The notes below the pieces were generated by a model. It was not told the origin of the DNA. It was given only the letters and a program-made list of their open reading frames with translations, and searched no databases. The translations under genes and the position numbers were made by a program. From positions 1 to 64,000 of the forward strand of contig JAAYJU010000180.1 of assembly GCA_012522735.1 (NCBI GenBank): 64,000 nt of DNA, read 5' to 3'. Source of the stretch: Clostridiales bacterium (lineage in GTDB: Bacteria > Bacillota > Clostridia > Lachnospirales > Lachnospiraceae). Position 1 is the stretch's first letter. Each line of letters opens with the position of its first letter. Below, in pieces: positions 14,722-47,624 of the stretch.

Positions 14722-15240
14722 CTATACCTTTTTGATTTTCCCTCTTCTTAAATCTCTTCTATAATACTTAAGGACTATCCTTTCTAACTTTCGTTTAAAA
14801 ACAATCTGTATCTCCTCCTTAGGACCGACAGGCTTTACAAAATAAGACATCATTCCTATCCTATTAGTACCAAAAATATCAGTAAATAGTTGGTCGCCTA
14901 CAAATACAGTGTTATCGATATTTGTTCCCATCTGTTTCATTGCTCTAAAGAAGCTCTTCTTTGCAGGCTTGTTTGCCTTATAAATATACTTTACATTTAT
15001 GTCTTTGTTAAACCTGGTAACACGTTCTTCGCTGTTATTAGATATCAGGCACAATTTGAACCCTATCACTTTTAGCCTAGCCATAAGCTCTATAGCTCTC
15101 GGACTAGCATCTGCTCCGTGCTCTACCAAGGTATTATCTATATCAAAGATAATTCCTCTATATCCTTCTTTATATAGTTTTTCATAATCAATTACATATG
15201 GTGAGTCAGCGATTCTTTTGGGGTAAAAAATTTTAAGCAT
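14722..15240 (-). CDS. YqeG family HAD-IIIA phosphatase
   Basis: FDIDNTLVEHG, FVGDQLFTDIFGTNRIGM. Confidence 0.93.
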   Translation of the reverse strand: MLKIFYPKRIADSPYVIDYEKLYKEGYRGIIFDIDNTLVEHGADASPRAIELMARLKVIGFKLCLISNNSEERVTRFNKDINVKYIYKANKPAKKSFFRAMKQMGTNIDNTVFVGDQLFTDIFGTNRIGMMSYFVKPVGPKEEIQIVFKRKLERIVLKYYRRDLRRGKIKKV

Positions 15241-15262: not shown

Positions 15263-15374
15263 GATAAGCAGATTAGTGGCTCCGCATTATGATAAGCAGA
15301 TTAGTGGCTCCGCATTATGATAAGCAGATTAGTGGCTCCGCATTATGATAAGCAGATTAGTGGCTCCGATGCTT
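15263..15374. repeat. Four tandem copies of the 28 bp left end of the TAAGCAGATTAG element
   Basis: gataagcagattagtggctccgcattat at 15263, 15291, 15319; fourth copy at 15347 continues into the full element. Confidence 0.95.
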
Positions 15375-15483
15375 CGCATCGTAGCACATGTTGCACTTAT
15401 CCAAGAGAAACATTATGTTTTATTATAACGCAAAAATCGCGTCACATAAAACATACTATTTCTCTTGGACTAATCTGCTTATC
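15347..15483. repeat. MITE-like/structured element copy A
   Basis: GATAAGCAGATTAG ... CTAATCTGCTTATC termini; GTTGCACTTATCC core; hairpin ccaagagaaa...ttctcttgg. Confidence 0.85.
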
Positions 15484-15576
15484 ATGATTATATCAATTCA
15501 TGGTTAAGCATACAACAATAAAGATTATCTTATTTTATGTAGCAAAATTAGTCTTGTTACATAAAGAAAAAACCAA

Positions 15577-16872: not shown

Positions 16873-17307
16873 TTATTTTTCAACATCAGCTGTACAATGT
16901 GAGCACTTGGTTGCATCAAGATGAATATCAGAATAGCAATAAGGGCATTTCTTTGTTGTAGGAGCTGCAGGCGCCTCGGGCTTCTGTAGCTTGTTAATCC
17001 ATTTGACGATCAAAAATACAACAAATGCCATGATAATGAAATTAATAATGTTTGAGATAAACATGCCATACTTTACTACTGCTGCTTCAGCTTCTTGGGC
17101 GGCAAGTAATGTGTCATAGCTCTCCCCATCAAGTGCTATAAATAAATTACTAAAATCGATTTTCTTAGTAAATACTCCAAGGAGTGGCATAACAATGTCA
17201 TTAACCAGAGAATTTACGATGGAGTTAAAAGCACCTCCAATAATTATACCTACTGCTAAATCAATCATGTTACCTCGAAGTGCAAACTTCTTAAATTCCT
17301 TTAGCAT
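16873..17307 (-). CDS. mscL: Large-conductance mechanosensitive channel MscL with C-terminal zinc ribbon
   Basis: [45 protein letters not shown]-terminal CPYC..CSHC. Confidence 0.93.
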
Positions 17308-17421
17308 TTTAATCCCTTCTTTCTTATTAATTTGATGTACTGTACTTAATTTCTTTAGTTTCCTTGAATTATTATGTTTCATTTTTTCATCATCCATACC
17401 TTAATAATATTCTTTAGCGAG

Positions 17422-17460
17422 TAAGCAGATTAGTAGCTCCGATGCTTATCATGATTATAC
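17422..17460. repeat. Deletion derivative of the TAAGCAGATTAG element
   Basis: taagcagattagtagctccgatgcttatcatgattata: left end fused to the sequence found to the right of copy A. Confidence 0.7.
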
Positions 17461-17574: not shown

Positions 17575-17825
17575 AAGAAAAGCAATGATGGAAAAGAGTA
17601 AATCAATAGGAAGCAAACAGAGAGAGGAGCATATGGTGGGAGTTCCTTATGTGAAATTTGATTGAAAACCATTCCTGAGCTGTAGCACAGAAAATAGTAT
17701 GTGTTATCGTATACCTGCGTTAAAGGTTAGGGTTTGTTGGAATCCGAAGTGAAAAGTTAAGGTGGAACCGTGCGTGATATATGCACCCTTAGGCAGAAAC
17801 ATTCTGCTTAGGGGTGTTTTTTACC
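17575..17825 (+). promoter_or_regulatory. T-box leader of thrS
   Basis: T-box motif AAGGTGGAACCGTG; stem I AGAGAG...GGTGGGAG; candidate specifier ACC in gaaaACCattcc; terminator cacccttaggcagaaacattctgcttaggggtgtttttt. Confidence 0.9.
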
Positions 17826-17886
17826 TGTTCGCATGGCAATTTCTTTTCTTATGTTATCAATTTTATTACCGAAAGGAGACATAGTG

Positions 17887-19626
17887 ATGAAAGTGATAAT
17901 GAAGAATGGAGAAATTGTTGAGAGCTCATTTGGAGAGGAGCTGGGGCGAAATGCGCTGCGCCATACCGCCGCACATATTCTGGCTCAAGCGGTAAAGCGA
18001 ATTTACCCAGAGACAAAATGTGCCATAGGACCCGCCATAGAAAATGGGTTCTATTATGATTTCGAATTTGGCTTTGATTTTACTGCAGAAAATCTATCTG
18101 AGATTGAAGCCGAGATAAAGCGCATAGTTAAAGAGGCTTTGCCGATTGAACGCCTTGTAGTAAGCCGAGAGGATGCTATAAGTGAAATGAAAAAGCGGAA
18201 GGAGGACTATAAGCTAGAATTACTTGCAGATATACCGCTGGATTCAACAATAAGTTTCTTTAGGCAAGGTGAATATTTAGAGATGTGCGCGGGCCCGCAT
18301 GTAGTAAACACAAGCCTTGTAAAAGCTATTAAGTTGACAGCTCTTGCAGGAGCTTATTGGAAGGGCAATGAAAATAATCAGATGCTAACTAGAATATATG
18401 GCACGGCTTTTTTAAAGCAGAGTGAACTCGATGAGTATATTGAAAAGCTTGAAGAAGCTAAGGCTAGAGACCACCGAAGGATTGGTAAGGAGCTTGGTTT
18501 ATTTGTCTTAATGGAGGAAGGACCTGGCTTTCCATTTTTTCTTCCCAAGGGGATAGTGCTAAAGAATTTATTACTGGATTATTGGAGAAAAGTTCATGAG
18601 CGTGAGGGTTATGTGGAAATATCATCACCGATTATGCTAAGACAAGAGCTATGGGAGGTCTCCGGACATTGGGATAATTACCGTGAAAGAATGTATACAT
18701 CAGAAATTGACGATATGGAATATGCTATAAAGCCAATGAACTGTCCCGGGGGAATGCTTGTATATAAAATGCAGCCACATTCCTATAAGGAGCTACCCAT
18801 TCGAATGGGTGAGCTCGGTCTTATTCATCGACATGAAAAATCAGGGACCCTTCATGGGCTTTTTAGAGTTCGCAGTTTTATACAGGATGACGCTCATATA
18901 TTTATGATGCGTGAACAGGTAATTGATGAAATCAAAGGTGTAGTTAGATTAATTGATGAGGTCTATCAGCAGTTCGGGTTCAAGTATCATGTAGAGCTAT
19001 CTACTAGACCCGAGAAAAGTATCGGAAGTGATGACGATTGGGAAGAGGCTATTGGAGCATTAAAGCTGGCTCTTGAGGAGATGAATCTATCTTATATAAT
19101 TAATGAAGGCGATGGGGCCTTTTATGGACCAAAGATAGACTTCCACTTGGAGGATTCTATAGGTAGAACATGGCAATGCGGAACAATACAATTGGATTTT
19201 CAGTTGCCACAAAGATTTAATGCTGAATATGTTGGTGCTGATGGCGAGAAGCATCAACCAATAATGATTCATCGTGTTATTCTTGGTTCAGTCGAACGAT
19301 TTATCGGAATCCTTATTGAGCATTATGCGGGAAAGTTTCCTGTTTGGCTGGCACCTGTTCAAGTCAAAATACTTCCAATATCAAATGCTTTTTTGGATTA
19401 TGCTTTAATAATATTTAATAAGCTAAAGGAAGCAGGTATCCGCTGCGAGCTTGATGAGCGAGACGAGAAGCTTGGTTATAAAATTAGAGAAGCCAGATTA
19501 GACAAGGTTCCATATATGGTTGTTGTCGGAAAGAATGAGCAAGAAGCCAATACAATTTCAGTTCGTGGAAGAGATGATGGCGACCTAGGAAACATGTCAG
19601 TTGATGAATTTATAAGGAGGATATAA
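17887..19626 (+). CDS. thrS: Threonyl-tRNA synthetase (start trimmed to MKVIMKNGEIV)
   Basis: HTAAHILAQAVKRIYP, AIKPMNCPGGMLVYK, class II motifs; T-box upstream. Confidence 0.96.
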   Translation: MKVIMKNGEIVESSFGEELGRNALRHTAAHILAQAVKRIYPETKCAIGPAIENGFYYDFEFGFDFTAENLSEIEAEIKRIVKEALPIERLVVSREDAISEMKKRKEDYKLELLADIPLDSTISFFRQGEYLEMCAGPHVVNTSLVKAIKLTALAGAYWKGNENNQMLTRIYGTAFLKQSELDEYIEKLEEAKARDHRRIGKELGLFVLMEEGPGFPFFLPKGIVLKNLLLDYWRKVHEREGYVEISSPIMLRQELWEVSGHWDNYRERMYTSEIDDMEYAIKPMNCPGGMLVYKMQPHSYKELPIRMGELGLIHRHEKSGTLHGLFRVRSFIQDDAHIFMMREQVIDEIKGVVRLIDEVYQQFGFKYHVELSTRPEKSIGSDDDWEEAIGALKLALEEMNLSYIINEGDGAFYGPKIDFHLEDSIGRTWQCGTIQLDFQLPQRFNAEYVGADGEKHQPIMIHRVILGSVERFIGILIEHYAGKFPVWLAPVQVKILPISNAFLDYALIIFNKLKEAGIRCELDERDEKLGYKIREARLDKVPYMVVVGKNEQEANTISVRGRDDGDLGNMSVDEFIRRI

Positions 19627-43535: not shown

Positions 43536-43853
43536 CTATTTCACTCCTTCAAATATATTATTTATTCTCTTATAATAGATAATCCATTCATCCATATATA
43601 ATCTTAGCTGTGCCATACCCGTGTCTGTGATTTTATAGTATCTTCTGTTACGTCCCGCAAATTCCATATCATATGTTTCCAGGCACCCATCCTTTTGTAG
43701 CCTTCGTAGTACCGGGTATAAGGTTGATTCTGAAACTTCGATTGCCTTTCGGACCTCCTGTGTCAGGTTGTATCCATAAGTACCTTCCGGTTCCTTAGAA
43801 ACTGTAGCCAGCACAATCGCGTCCAGCAGTGCCGAACCGGTATTAAATACCAT
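43536..43853 (-). CDS. PadR family transcriptional regulator
   Basis: LDAIVLATVSKEPEGTYGYNLTQEVRKAIEVSESTLYPVLRRLQKDGCLETY. Confidence 0.93.
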   Translation of the reverse strand: MVFNTGSALLDAIVLATVSKEPEGTYGYNLTQEVRKAIEVSESTLYPVLRRLQKDGCLETYDMEFAGRNRRYYKITDTGMAQLRLYMDEWIIYYKRINNIFEGVK

Positions 43854-43893
43854 CCCATCCACTCCCTTCAATTTGTTGTTGTGTTATTCATAT

Positions 43894-44024
43894 TAAGCAG
43901 ATTAGAGCTCGGAAGCTACACTTCCTCGCTCGCGTTGCACTTATCCATGCCAATCATCTCGCTTTATTATGACATAAAACATGTCACAATAAAACGTGCT
44001 GATTATCATGGACTAATCTGCTTA
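43894..44024. repeat. MITE-like/structured element copy B
   Basis: TAAGCAGATTAG...GTTGCACTTATCC...CTTTATTATGACATAAAACATGTCACAATAAAAC...GGACTAATCTGCTTA. Confidence 0.85.
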
Positions 44025-44100
44025 TTCGCGCATAGTATTATTTTAGCAATACTATACATCATATAATATTATATGTCAATAGGGTATTATATTATTATAT

Positions 44101-45558: not shown

Positions 45559-45664
45559 TTTTAATTATTACATAAATGTTAAATATGTTACAAAAGTATT
45601 ATACTATATGTTATTAAAAAATGCATGTGGAAACTTTTACATATTATGATATAATGTCCACGCA

Positions 45665-45819
45665 TAAGCAGATTAGGCCAAGATAAAAAATACATTTTAT
45701 ATAACATTCTCTTTATGTTATAATAAAATGTATTATTTATCTTGGATAAGTGCAACGTGAATCGGTTTAGCAAGCTAAACCTTTAAAAATGCGAAGCATT
45801 CGAGCTCCTAATCTGCTTA
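45665..45819. repeat. MITE-like/structured element copy C (inverted relative to A and B)
   Basis: TAAGCAGATTAGG, hairpin ccaagataaa...tttatcttgg, ataagtgcaac core, CCTAATCTGCTTA. Confidence 0.85.
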
Positions 45820-45854: not shown

Positions 45855-47624
45855 ATGGCATTAGACGGAATTGTAATTGCAAATATTGTAGATGAATTAA
45901 GAAGCACCCTGCTTGGGGGTAGAATTAATAAGATTGCTCAGCCCGAGAAGGACGAGCTTTTGATAACTATAAAAGGACAGGATAGAAAAGCTTACAAATT
46001 ATTCCTTAGCGCCAGTGCAGGTATGCCTTTGGTTTACCTGACAGAGAATACAAAGACCAGCCCCATAACAGCCCCGAATTTTTGTATGCTTCTTCGCAAA
46101 CATCTTAACAACGGTAAAATACTTGATATTACACAGCCTAGGCTAGAGCGAATTATATCTTTTAAGCTAGAGCATATGGATGAGCTGGGTGATTTGGGAA
46201 TCAAGCATCTCATCATCGAGCTTATGGGTAAGCATAGCAATATAATATTCTGTGATGAAGCTATGACCATTATCGATAGCATTAAGCGAGTTAACCAATT
46301 TATGAGCTCGGTTCGTGAGGTCCTTCCCGGAAGGAAGTACTTTATTCCAGAGACCACTAATAAGCTTGACCCTCTAACTATTGATTACACTGCCTTTAGT
46401 GATAATATATTAAGTAAGGCACAACCTATCGGAAAAGCAATATATACAGGGCTTACGGGTATCAGCCCCCTAATTGCAAATGAAATATGCCATAGGTCTT
46501 CTATCGATGCAAACCTATCGACCTCAGCACTTAATGAGGATACGGGACTCCATCTTTATCGTAATTTTGAGAGAGTCATACAGCTTGTTAAGGATAATGA
46601 ATTTTCACCTAATATCGTTATGGGGGAGCGAGGGCCAATAGAATTCTCCAGTATTCCTCTGACCTGTTATTCTGGTCATGAAATATATAGCCTATCATCT
46701 GCATCCTCCATGCTTGAGACTTATTATGCAAGCAAAAATGCTACATCTAGGATGCATCAAAAGTCATCAGACCTTCGCAAGCTTGTCGCAAATGCTATTG
46801 AACGTTCCACTAAAAAATACGATTTACAGCTAAAACAGCTGAAGGATACAGAAAAAAGAGATAAGTATAAGGTATACGGCGAGCTTATAACAGCCTTTGG
46901 TTACGGATTGGAGCAGGGTGCAAAGGAGCTAATAGCAGAGGATTACTATAATAACAATGAGGAAATTAAGATTCCTCTTGATCCCCTACTTTCACCAATA
47001 GAAAATGCCAGAAAATATTTTGAAAGGTATAATAAGCTTAAGAGGACCTTTGAAGCATTAACCTCTTTAATTAAAGAAACTAAGGACGAAATAGAACACT
47101 TAGAATCCATTAGAACATCCTTGGAAATGGCCACTGATGAGCATGATTTGGCCCAGCTTCGGCATGAGCTTATGGAATATGGATATATCAAGAGGAGGTT
47201 TAACCTTAAGAAAGGTGAGCTTAAAAGTGCAGGCGGTAAAAATTCCAAAAGCAAGCCCTTCCACTATATCTCTTCTGATGGATATCATATCTATGTAGGG
47301 AAAAACAATTATCAGAATGAAGAGCTTACCTTTAAGCTGGCTGATGGTAATGACTGGTGGTTCCATGCTAAGAACCTACCCGGCTCCCATGTAATTGTAA
47401 AATCCGGGGGAAATGAGCTACCTGATAGAACATTTGAAGAAGCAGCAAGACTTGCAGCCTATTACAGCGGGGCTAAGGAAGCAGATAAGGTTGAAATAGA
47501 CTATACAGAAAGAAAGAATATAAAAAAGCCAGCCGGTAAAGCACCGGGCTTTGTCATATATAGCACTAACTATTCCATGGTAGCAGGTACAGATATCTCG
47601 GATATTAGGAAGGCTGAGGATTAG
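45855..47624 (+). CDS. rqcH: NFACT family Rqc2 homolog RqcH (start trimmed to MALDGIVIANIVDEL)
   Basis: ALDGIVIANIVDELRSTLLGGRINKI; C-terminal GKNNYQNEELTFKLADGNDWWFHAKNLPGSHVIVK. Confidence 0.93.
   Translation: MALDGIVIANIVDELRSTLLGGRINKIAQPEKDELLITIKGQDRKAYKLFLSASAGMPLVYLTENTKTSPITAPNFCMLLRKHLNNGKILDITQPRLERIISFKLEHMDELGDLGIKHLIIELMGKHSNIIFCDEAMTIIDSIKRVNQFMSSVREVLPGRKYFIPETTNKLDPLTIDYTAFSDNILSKAQPIGKAIYTGLTGISPLIANEICHRSSIDANLSTSALNEDTGLHLYRNFERVIQLVKDNEFSPNIVMGERGPIEFSSIPLTCYSGHEIYSLSSASSMLETYYASKNATSRMHQKSSDLRKLVANAIERSTKKYDLQLKQLKDTEKRDKYKVYGELITAFGYGLEQGAKELIAEDYYNNNEEIKIPLDPLLSPIENARKYFERYNKLKRTFEALTSLIKETKDEIEHLESIRTSLEMATDEHDLAQLRHELMEYGYIKRRFNLKKGELKSAGGKNSKSKPFHYISSDGYHIYVGKNNYQNEELTFKLADGNDWWFHAKNLPGSHVIVKSGGNELPDRTFEEAARLAAYYSGAKEADKVEIDYTERKNIKKPAGKAPGFVIYSTNYSMVAGTDISDIRKAED

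Follow-up and report, generated by a model that had tools for sequence, protein, structure and literature searches.

A dispersed pseudoknotted RNA element, probably a cis-acting leader and a divergent relative of Clostridiales-1, at the starts of unrelated genes in Lachnospiraceae

The window analysed here, a 64,000-nucleotide stretch of contig JAAYJU010000180.1 from a Clostridiales bacterium of the Lachnospiraceae, carries at positions 15347-15483 a short palindromic segment (copy A) that raises the question of whether it is a mobile DNA repeat or the trace of a structured RNA. The initial annotation proposed a MITE or a structured intergenic element, and the parts from which it was built are all present, namely the inverted termini TAAGCAGATTAG...CTAATCTGCTTA, the small hairpin, the core GTTGCACTTATCC at 15390-15402, the long hairpin, and an architecture shared with two further copies, B and C, the latter on the opposite strand. 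The -10 box, the pseudoknot and the start codon were absent from that description and can be interpreted only on the opposite strand. The element is very probably a cis-acting RNA leader and, jointly, a divergent branch of the Clostridiales-1 lineage. The features of copy A, read on its functional strand, are the following.

15347..15483, minus strand: copy A (functional strand, reverse of that first annotated)
15487..15492, minus strand: -10 box TATAAT of the promoter reading into copy A, at a spacing fixed across copies
15483..15486, minus strand: 5' strand of the pseudoknot, CATG
15470-15481 and 15349-15360, minus strand: 5' and 3' strands of helix P1 of the RNA
15401..15469, minus strand: long hairpin P2, pairing kept and sequence free
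15391..15401, minus strand: conserved joining strand GATAAGTGCAA, the 'core' first annotated
15387..15390, minus strand: 3' strand of the pseudoknot, CATG, immediately 3' of GATAAGTGCAA
15361..15386, minus strand: hairpin P3
15263..15346, minus strand: three tandem 28-bp repeats of the P3'-P1' (3') end of the element, not annotated before
14722..15240, minus strand: downstream gene for a HAD-family hydrolase
17422..17450, minus strand: internally deleted short copy, likewise not annotated before, with TATAAT at 17454-17459, upstream of the ORF at 16873-17397

The tandem repeats at 15263-15346 leave copy A with one P1 5' strand and four possible 3' strands. A T-box leader is also present in this region, at 17576-17793, upstream of the ORF at 17833-19626.

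On the functional strand, the order of elements is -10 box, CACGA, TAAGCAGATTAG, long hairpin, GGATAAGTGCAA, CGTG, small hairpin, CTAATCTGCTTA, ribosome-binding site and start codon. The element spans ~135-155 nt and its predicted fold is a three-way junction in the order 5'-PK-P1-P2-J-PK'-P3-P1', in which the supposed 'terminal inverted repeats' are the two strands of helix P1. Conservation is centred on the junction, and the sequences of P2 and P3 vary freely. In an alignment of 17 copies, 23 of the 43 pairs show double changes, and in one of 90 copies from many genomes double changes affect 44 of 48 pairs, with 93.9% pairing and a covariation score of 0.529, compared with 0.165 after shuffling and at most 0.086 for slid controls. 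Because the 90-copy alignment was fitted to the structure, P2 was also folded with a strand-symmetric score in which G-U and A-C are equally penalised; across 112 copies, the residual non-Watson-Crick pairs in P2 comprise 124 G-U versus 13 A-C (p ~7e-24), so that it is on the sense strand that the fold operates. An RNA is the natural reading of this asymmetry, with the qualifications that a single-stranded DNA fold of the same strand would likewise favour G-T over A-C and that transcription-linked C-to-T mutation could contribute to the bias. An RNA in the orientation first annotated, which offers good-looking UUCG and CUUG loops, was considered and rejected, given that the sense strand prevails on the G-U/A-C balance, on the promoter and on gene orientation.

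The four bases 5' of P1 pair with the four bases that follow the conserved GAUAAGUGCAA, forming a pseudoknot that draws on bases outside the inverted termini. All four pairs form in 84 of 122 copies, compared with 61.8 +/- 2.6 when partners are shuffled (maximum 72 in 2000 shuffles), and the combinations observed are CACG/CGTG, CGCG/CGCG, CATG/CATG, CGTG/CACG and CAAG/CTTG. The three copies of the window use three of them (CATG/CATG, CGCG/CGCG and CACG/CGTG in A, B and C, respectively). Moreover, both strands changed together at orthologous sites: CACG/CGTG in one genome (G009, L137) corresponds to CATG/CATG in another (G014, L078), and CACG/CGTG in the genome of the window (G000, L051) to CGCG/CGCG in G014 (L146). 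Cousins of the element in other genera keep the pseudoknot as CGTG/CACG or CGCG/CGCG; some of these cousins could alternatively use those bases to extend P1. The joining strand has to pass along the 12-bp P1. Position J7 is C only where the P1 pair A6-U is G6-C (97:0 versus 9:11, Fisher p ~2e-10), which is the pattern expected for U.A-U and C.G-C triples and may rest on few independent changes; the joining strand probably docks in the P1 groove through base triples. The remaining features of the window concern copies B and C.

43894..44024, minus strand: copy B, in the 5' UTR of a PadR-family regulator gene (ORF 43536-43871)
44027-44030 and 43931-43934, minus strand: pseudoknot strands of copy B, CGCG/CGCG
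44074-44079 (TTGACA) and 44051-44056 (TATAGT), minus strand: conserved promoter of copy B
45665..45819, plus strand: copy C
45650-45655, plus strand: -10 box TATAAT of copy C
45659-45662 with 45756-45759, plus strand: pseudoknot of copy C, CACG/CGTG
45745-45755, plus strand: joining strand of copy C
from ~45763, plus strand: optional extra hairpin of copy C
45855..47624, plus strand: downstream gene of the RqcH/EfbA (NFACT) family

The optional hairpin is palindromic (GGTTCAGCAAGCTGAACC) and occurs in the joining region of several copies (45763-45790; L054, L061, L062, L063); in some of them its insertion places the pseudoknot partner behind the hairpin.

The position of the element relative to promoters and genes is equally one-sided. 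Of 123 copies, 54 have an exact TATAAT at an identical spacing from the element and none has it at the mirrored position; the reversed box occupies the former position in four. In the flanks, information is limited to the -10 region and CACGA, apart from a trace of a -35 box. A crude ORF caller places the nearest right-hand gene in sense orientation in 97 cases and antisense in 18, and the start codon follows the element at a median of 59 nt, across a short and unconserved stretch. Copy B probably does not lie exactly at +1, because its conserved promoter sits further upstream. The G-U/A-C asymmetry, a covarying pseudoknot beyond the apparent inverted repeats, the fixed -10 box and the single gene orientation together point away from a DNA repeat and towards a transcribed RNA leader; the fold, the pseudoknot, the promoter-proximal sense position and the dispersal are all legible in the DNA itself, and the element is presumably transcribed. 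The downstream genes belong to unrelated housekeeping functions, including alaS, rqcH, mutS2, guaA, gyrA, pcrA, coaX, truA, apt, tig, obg, parA, topB and ilvH, among others.

The element is also found between cistrons. P1 of several intercistronic copies opens with a TAA that is also the stop codon of the upstream ORF (L047, L051, L061, L080, L081, L157, L171, L180, L195), which would leave a terminating ribosome positioned over the pseudoknot. This arrangement could be taken as a sign of a processing element, in which RNase III, RNase Y or self-cleavage would cut the leader or intercistronic RNA and so define where the downstream message begins. The 28-bp P2 duplex would suit RNase III, and the strand order 5'-PK-P1-P2-PK'-P3-P1' is that of HDV-like ribozymes. 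However, no Rfam ribozyme family was matched, and a transcript initiated from the -10 box would carry hardly any RNA ahead of the element for cleavage to remove, which makes processing a quite improbable explanation. An HDV-like or other self-cleaving ribozyme was rejected in particular, since the strand order is alike but Rfam scans match no ribozyme covariance model.

The recurrence of the element extends well beyond the window, as a genome-wide search and a covariance model, both suggested at the outset, make clear. The genome of origin (G000; 2.82 Mb in 259 contigs) contains TAAGCAGATTAG within one mismatch 114 times, versus 16 for the reversed control and thus far more often than expected by chance, and the covariance model finds ~28 full copies plus many partial ones. 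Within the genus, which appears to include Mobilitalea sibirica and MAGs named Herbinix, 25 of 34 genomes have at least one match and several are without the element, with matches per genome ranging from 0 to ~50. Sampling 392 genomes across the order yielded 10 with a match, in six genera and three families. G384, from another genus, holds eight or more copies similar to this genus's 134-nt subfamily (L292, L299, L301, L303-L307), most with the -10 box in the same place, and both recent transfer and common descent are possible. Four cousins (L293 in G095, L294 in G050, L297 and L302) come immediately after a hairpin that resembles a terminator and is accompanied by a T run; L293 and L294 additionally have a TPP riboswitch upstream of that hairpin and a membrane-transporter-like gene behind the element. 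One contig with a copy (L126) is labelled Anaerolineaceae, a label that is probably wrong, the contig being equal in length to contig C103 of the genus member G014. A phage or plasmid origin was discarded, with no match among plasmids, phages and viral contigs.

How the copies reached so many sites is best read from near-identical pairs. In each of three genomes (G010, G014, G021), copies with 91-97% identity stand in unrelated flanks, which on sequence grounds show copy-and-paste spread; the dispersal implied by the MITE proposal is thus real. Copies that are otherwise 93-95% identical differ in their 5' flank, and the identity spans ~CACGA to CTGC. These observations, together with common internal deletion derivatives, would also suit a non-autonomous selfish DNA element, either a MITE or one of IS200/IS605 type. 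Its single-stranded DNA fold, specific to one strand, would be the transposase substrate, and it would insert at melted promoters with CACG/CGTG as target recognition by an internal guide. A few copies are flanked by direct repeats of 10-17 bp that include the -10 box (6 versus 1.5 expected), as such an element might leave, but most copies lack them. Neither an autonomous transposon with the same ends nor a mobilising enzyme was seen in the loci read, and Y1 transposase genes were not found in the copy-rich genomes G015 and G018 (both ~85% complete). Moreover, ten orthologous pairs contain 61 double changes that keep pairing, 20 single changes that keep it and 30 that break it, whereas slid controls give 2-7 double-kept and at least 100 single-broken changes. 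Pairing kept through double changes at orthologous sites indicates that copies are held in shape in place, which is unexpected for resident selfish copies, and a selfish DNA element is rather unlikely. Target-site duplication as a general rule was set aside, the excess of flanking repeats being small, as was IS200/IS605 mobilisation, since Y1 genes do not track copy number. In one copy (L181, G010), a perfect 17-bp direct repeat, GGTTCATGATATAATAT, resembles a target-site duplication and includes the -10 box.

Maintenance in place coexists with frequent loss. At the rqcH locus, one relative has a deleted copy (G009), another has two tandem copies (G015) and three have no full copy (G001, G005, G007); the gene behind copy A is preceded by deletion derivatives in G009 and G001. 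Empty sites of the kind sought at the outset exist at the copy B gene, where most relatives keep the same conserved promoter without the element. Loss and internal deletion at orthologous sites are frequent enough to indicate that no single copy is indispensable.

In the proposed mechanism, the RNA would form the start of the mRNA or lie close to it; the few bases ahead of P1 fold back and pair just behind GAUAAGUGCAA, which knots the 5' end into the three-way junction; and this knotted end would act as a mechanical block or stabiliser that slows 5'-to-3' decay by RNase J. Copies have spread by copy and paste to the starts of many unrelated genes and, once landed, either decay through internal deletion or are kept. 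Tying the 5' end into a junction is suggestive of an obstacle to RNase J, an enzyme encoded in the genome, and the feature that characterises exoribonuclease-resistant RNAs, a 5' end knotted into a multi-way junction, is found here in the covarying pseudoknot and the three-way junction. One such RNA, a flaviviral xrRNA whose three-way junction is threaded, stops RNase J1 in vitro (PMC5760640), and in B. subtilis 5' leaders can stabilise whole messages (PMC3997798). The block against RNase J is the best guess for the function, offered tentatively. The broader picture, in which a triple-helix pseudoknot RNA copies itself to transcription starts as a mobile mRNA 5'-end cap, shields any message on which it lands from 5'-to-3' decay, and would thereby be both a bacterial equivalent of viral exonuclease-resistant RNA and the explanation of what Clostridiales-1 does, is unlikely as a whole.

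The main rival is a riboswitch or protein-binding leader, in which P1, the joining strand and the pseudoknot would form a pocket for a metabolite or an RNA-binding protein that sets the expression of many genes. A pseudoknot with a docked strand resembles the build of small riboswitches, and both the junction-centred conservation with freely varying P2 and P3 and the existence of tandem copies would agree with a sensor. Against it, a survey of the genes behind the copies yields no one-pathway set, the copy number varies from 0 to ~50 within one genus, and no terminator, anti-SD or other expression platform was noticed between the element and the start codon. Unrelated housekeeping genes and the missing platform favour a general effect on the message over sensing, so that the sensor is a doubtful, if serious, possibility.

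Lastly, the element can be set against known systems. MITEs, ERIC and Correia-type palindromic repeats are likewise short, palindromic, dispersed and non-coding; unlike them, the element is not strand-symmetric, is promoter-linked and pseudoknotted, and has its structure kept by co-variation on one strand. Similar in being dispersed, modular and short are the BOX elements of Streptococcus pneumoniae (PMC3049150), which have a predicted RNA fold and occur in transcribed intergenic regions; they show only a slight excess between divergent genes and an excess between convergent ones (PMC3049150), whereas the present element is pseudoknotted and lies in sense at the 5' ends of mRNAs, behind a -10 box at constant spacing. 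With xrRNAs it shares a three-way junction with 5' nucleotides paired into the fold, and tandem copies. It differs from them in having no sequence or family relation, other helix lengths and another knot topology: its 5' end pairs after P2 and the knot would stack on the outer end of the 12-bp P1.

The closest relative is Clostridiales-1 (RF01699, gathering score 48 bits), and this bears on the novelty first claimed. An Rfam scan of the window copies gave no known family and nothing convincing, and RF01699 matches no copy in G000 or G014; a named family does match cousin copies, so that the element has some kinship with what is already named. In G384, RF01699 scores one copy at 52.9 bits, above the gathering score and coinciding with a 121-bit match of model R2, and two others at 37-38 bits; it gives 36.1 and 26.8 bits on copies of G175 and 31.2 bits on one copy of G021. 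The cousins align full length to model positions 1-166, and several genomes with a remote cousin also carry canonical Clostridiales-1 copies. Both groups are multi-copy in Clostridiales and share the order P1, long P2, joining region with an optional extra hairpin, P3 and P1', and several canonical copies read sit, in sense, straight after a stop codon and straight before a start codon. The canonical core is instead ACAUGAG-AAGUAGC...GCGGAUU-CGAAUG, versus GAUAAGUGCAA-CGUG-AGCGA here, the 5' pseudoknot is not evident on inspection of the canonical copies read, and R2 finds none of the canonical copies tested. Given the differing cores and these missed copies, the most fitting description of the element is a divergent branch, or a sister family, of Clostridiales-1. 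The table of Weinberg et al. 2010 (PMC2864571) marks Clostridiales-1 as y, n, n for Clostridiales and the human gut, which appears to mean a likely RNA that is neither cis-regulatory nor a switch; in the present branch, by contrast, the element clearly occupies a cis position. Clostridiales-1 has remained an orphan since 2010, and the many copies, visible promoter, pseudoknot and constant place at the starts of unrelated messages turn this branch of it into a testable cis-acting leader and an example of a short structured RNA that spreads through a genome and is placed at dozens of promoters.
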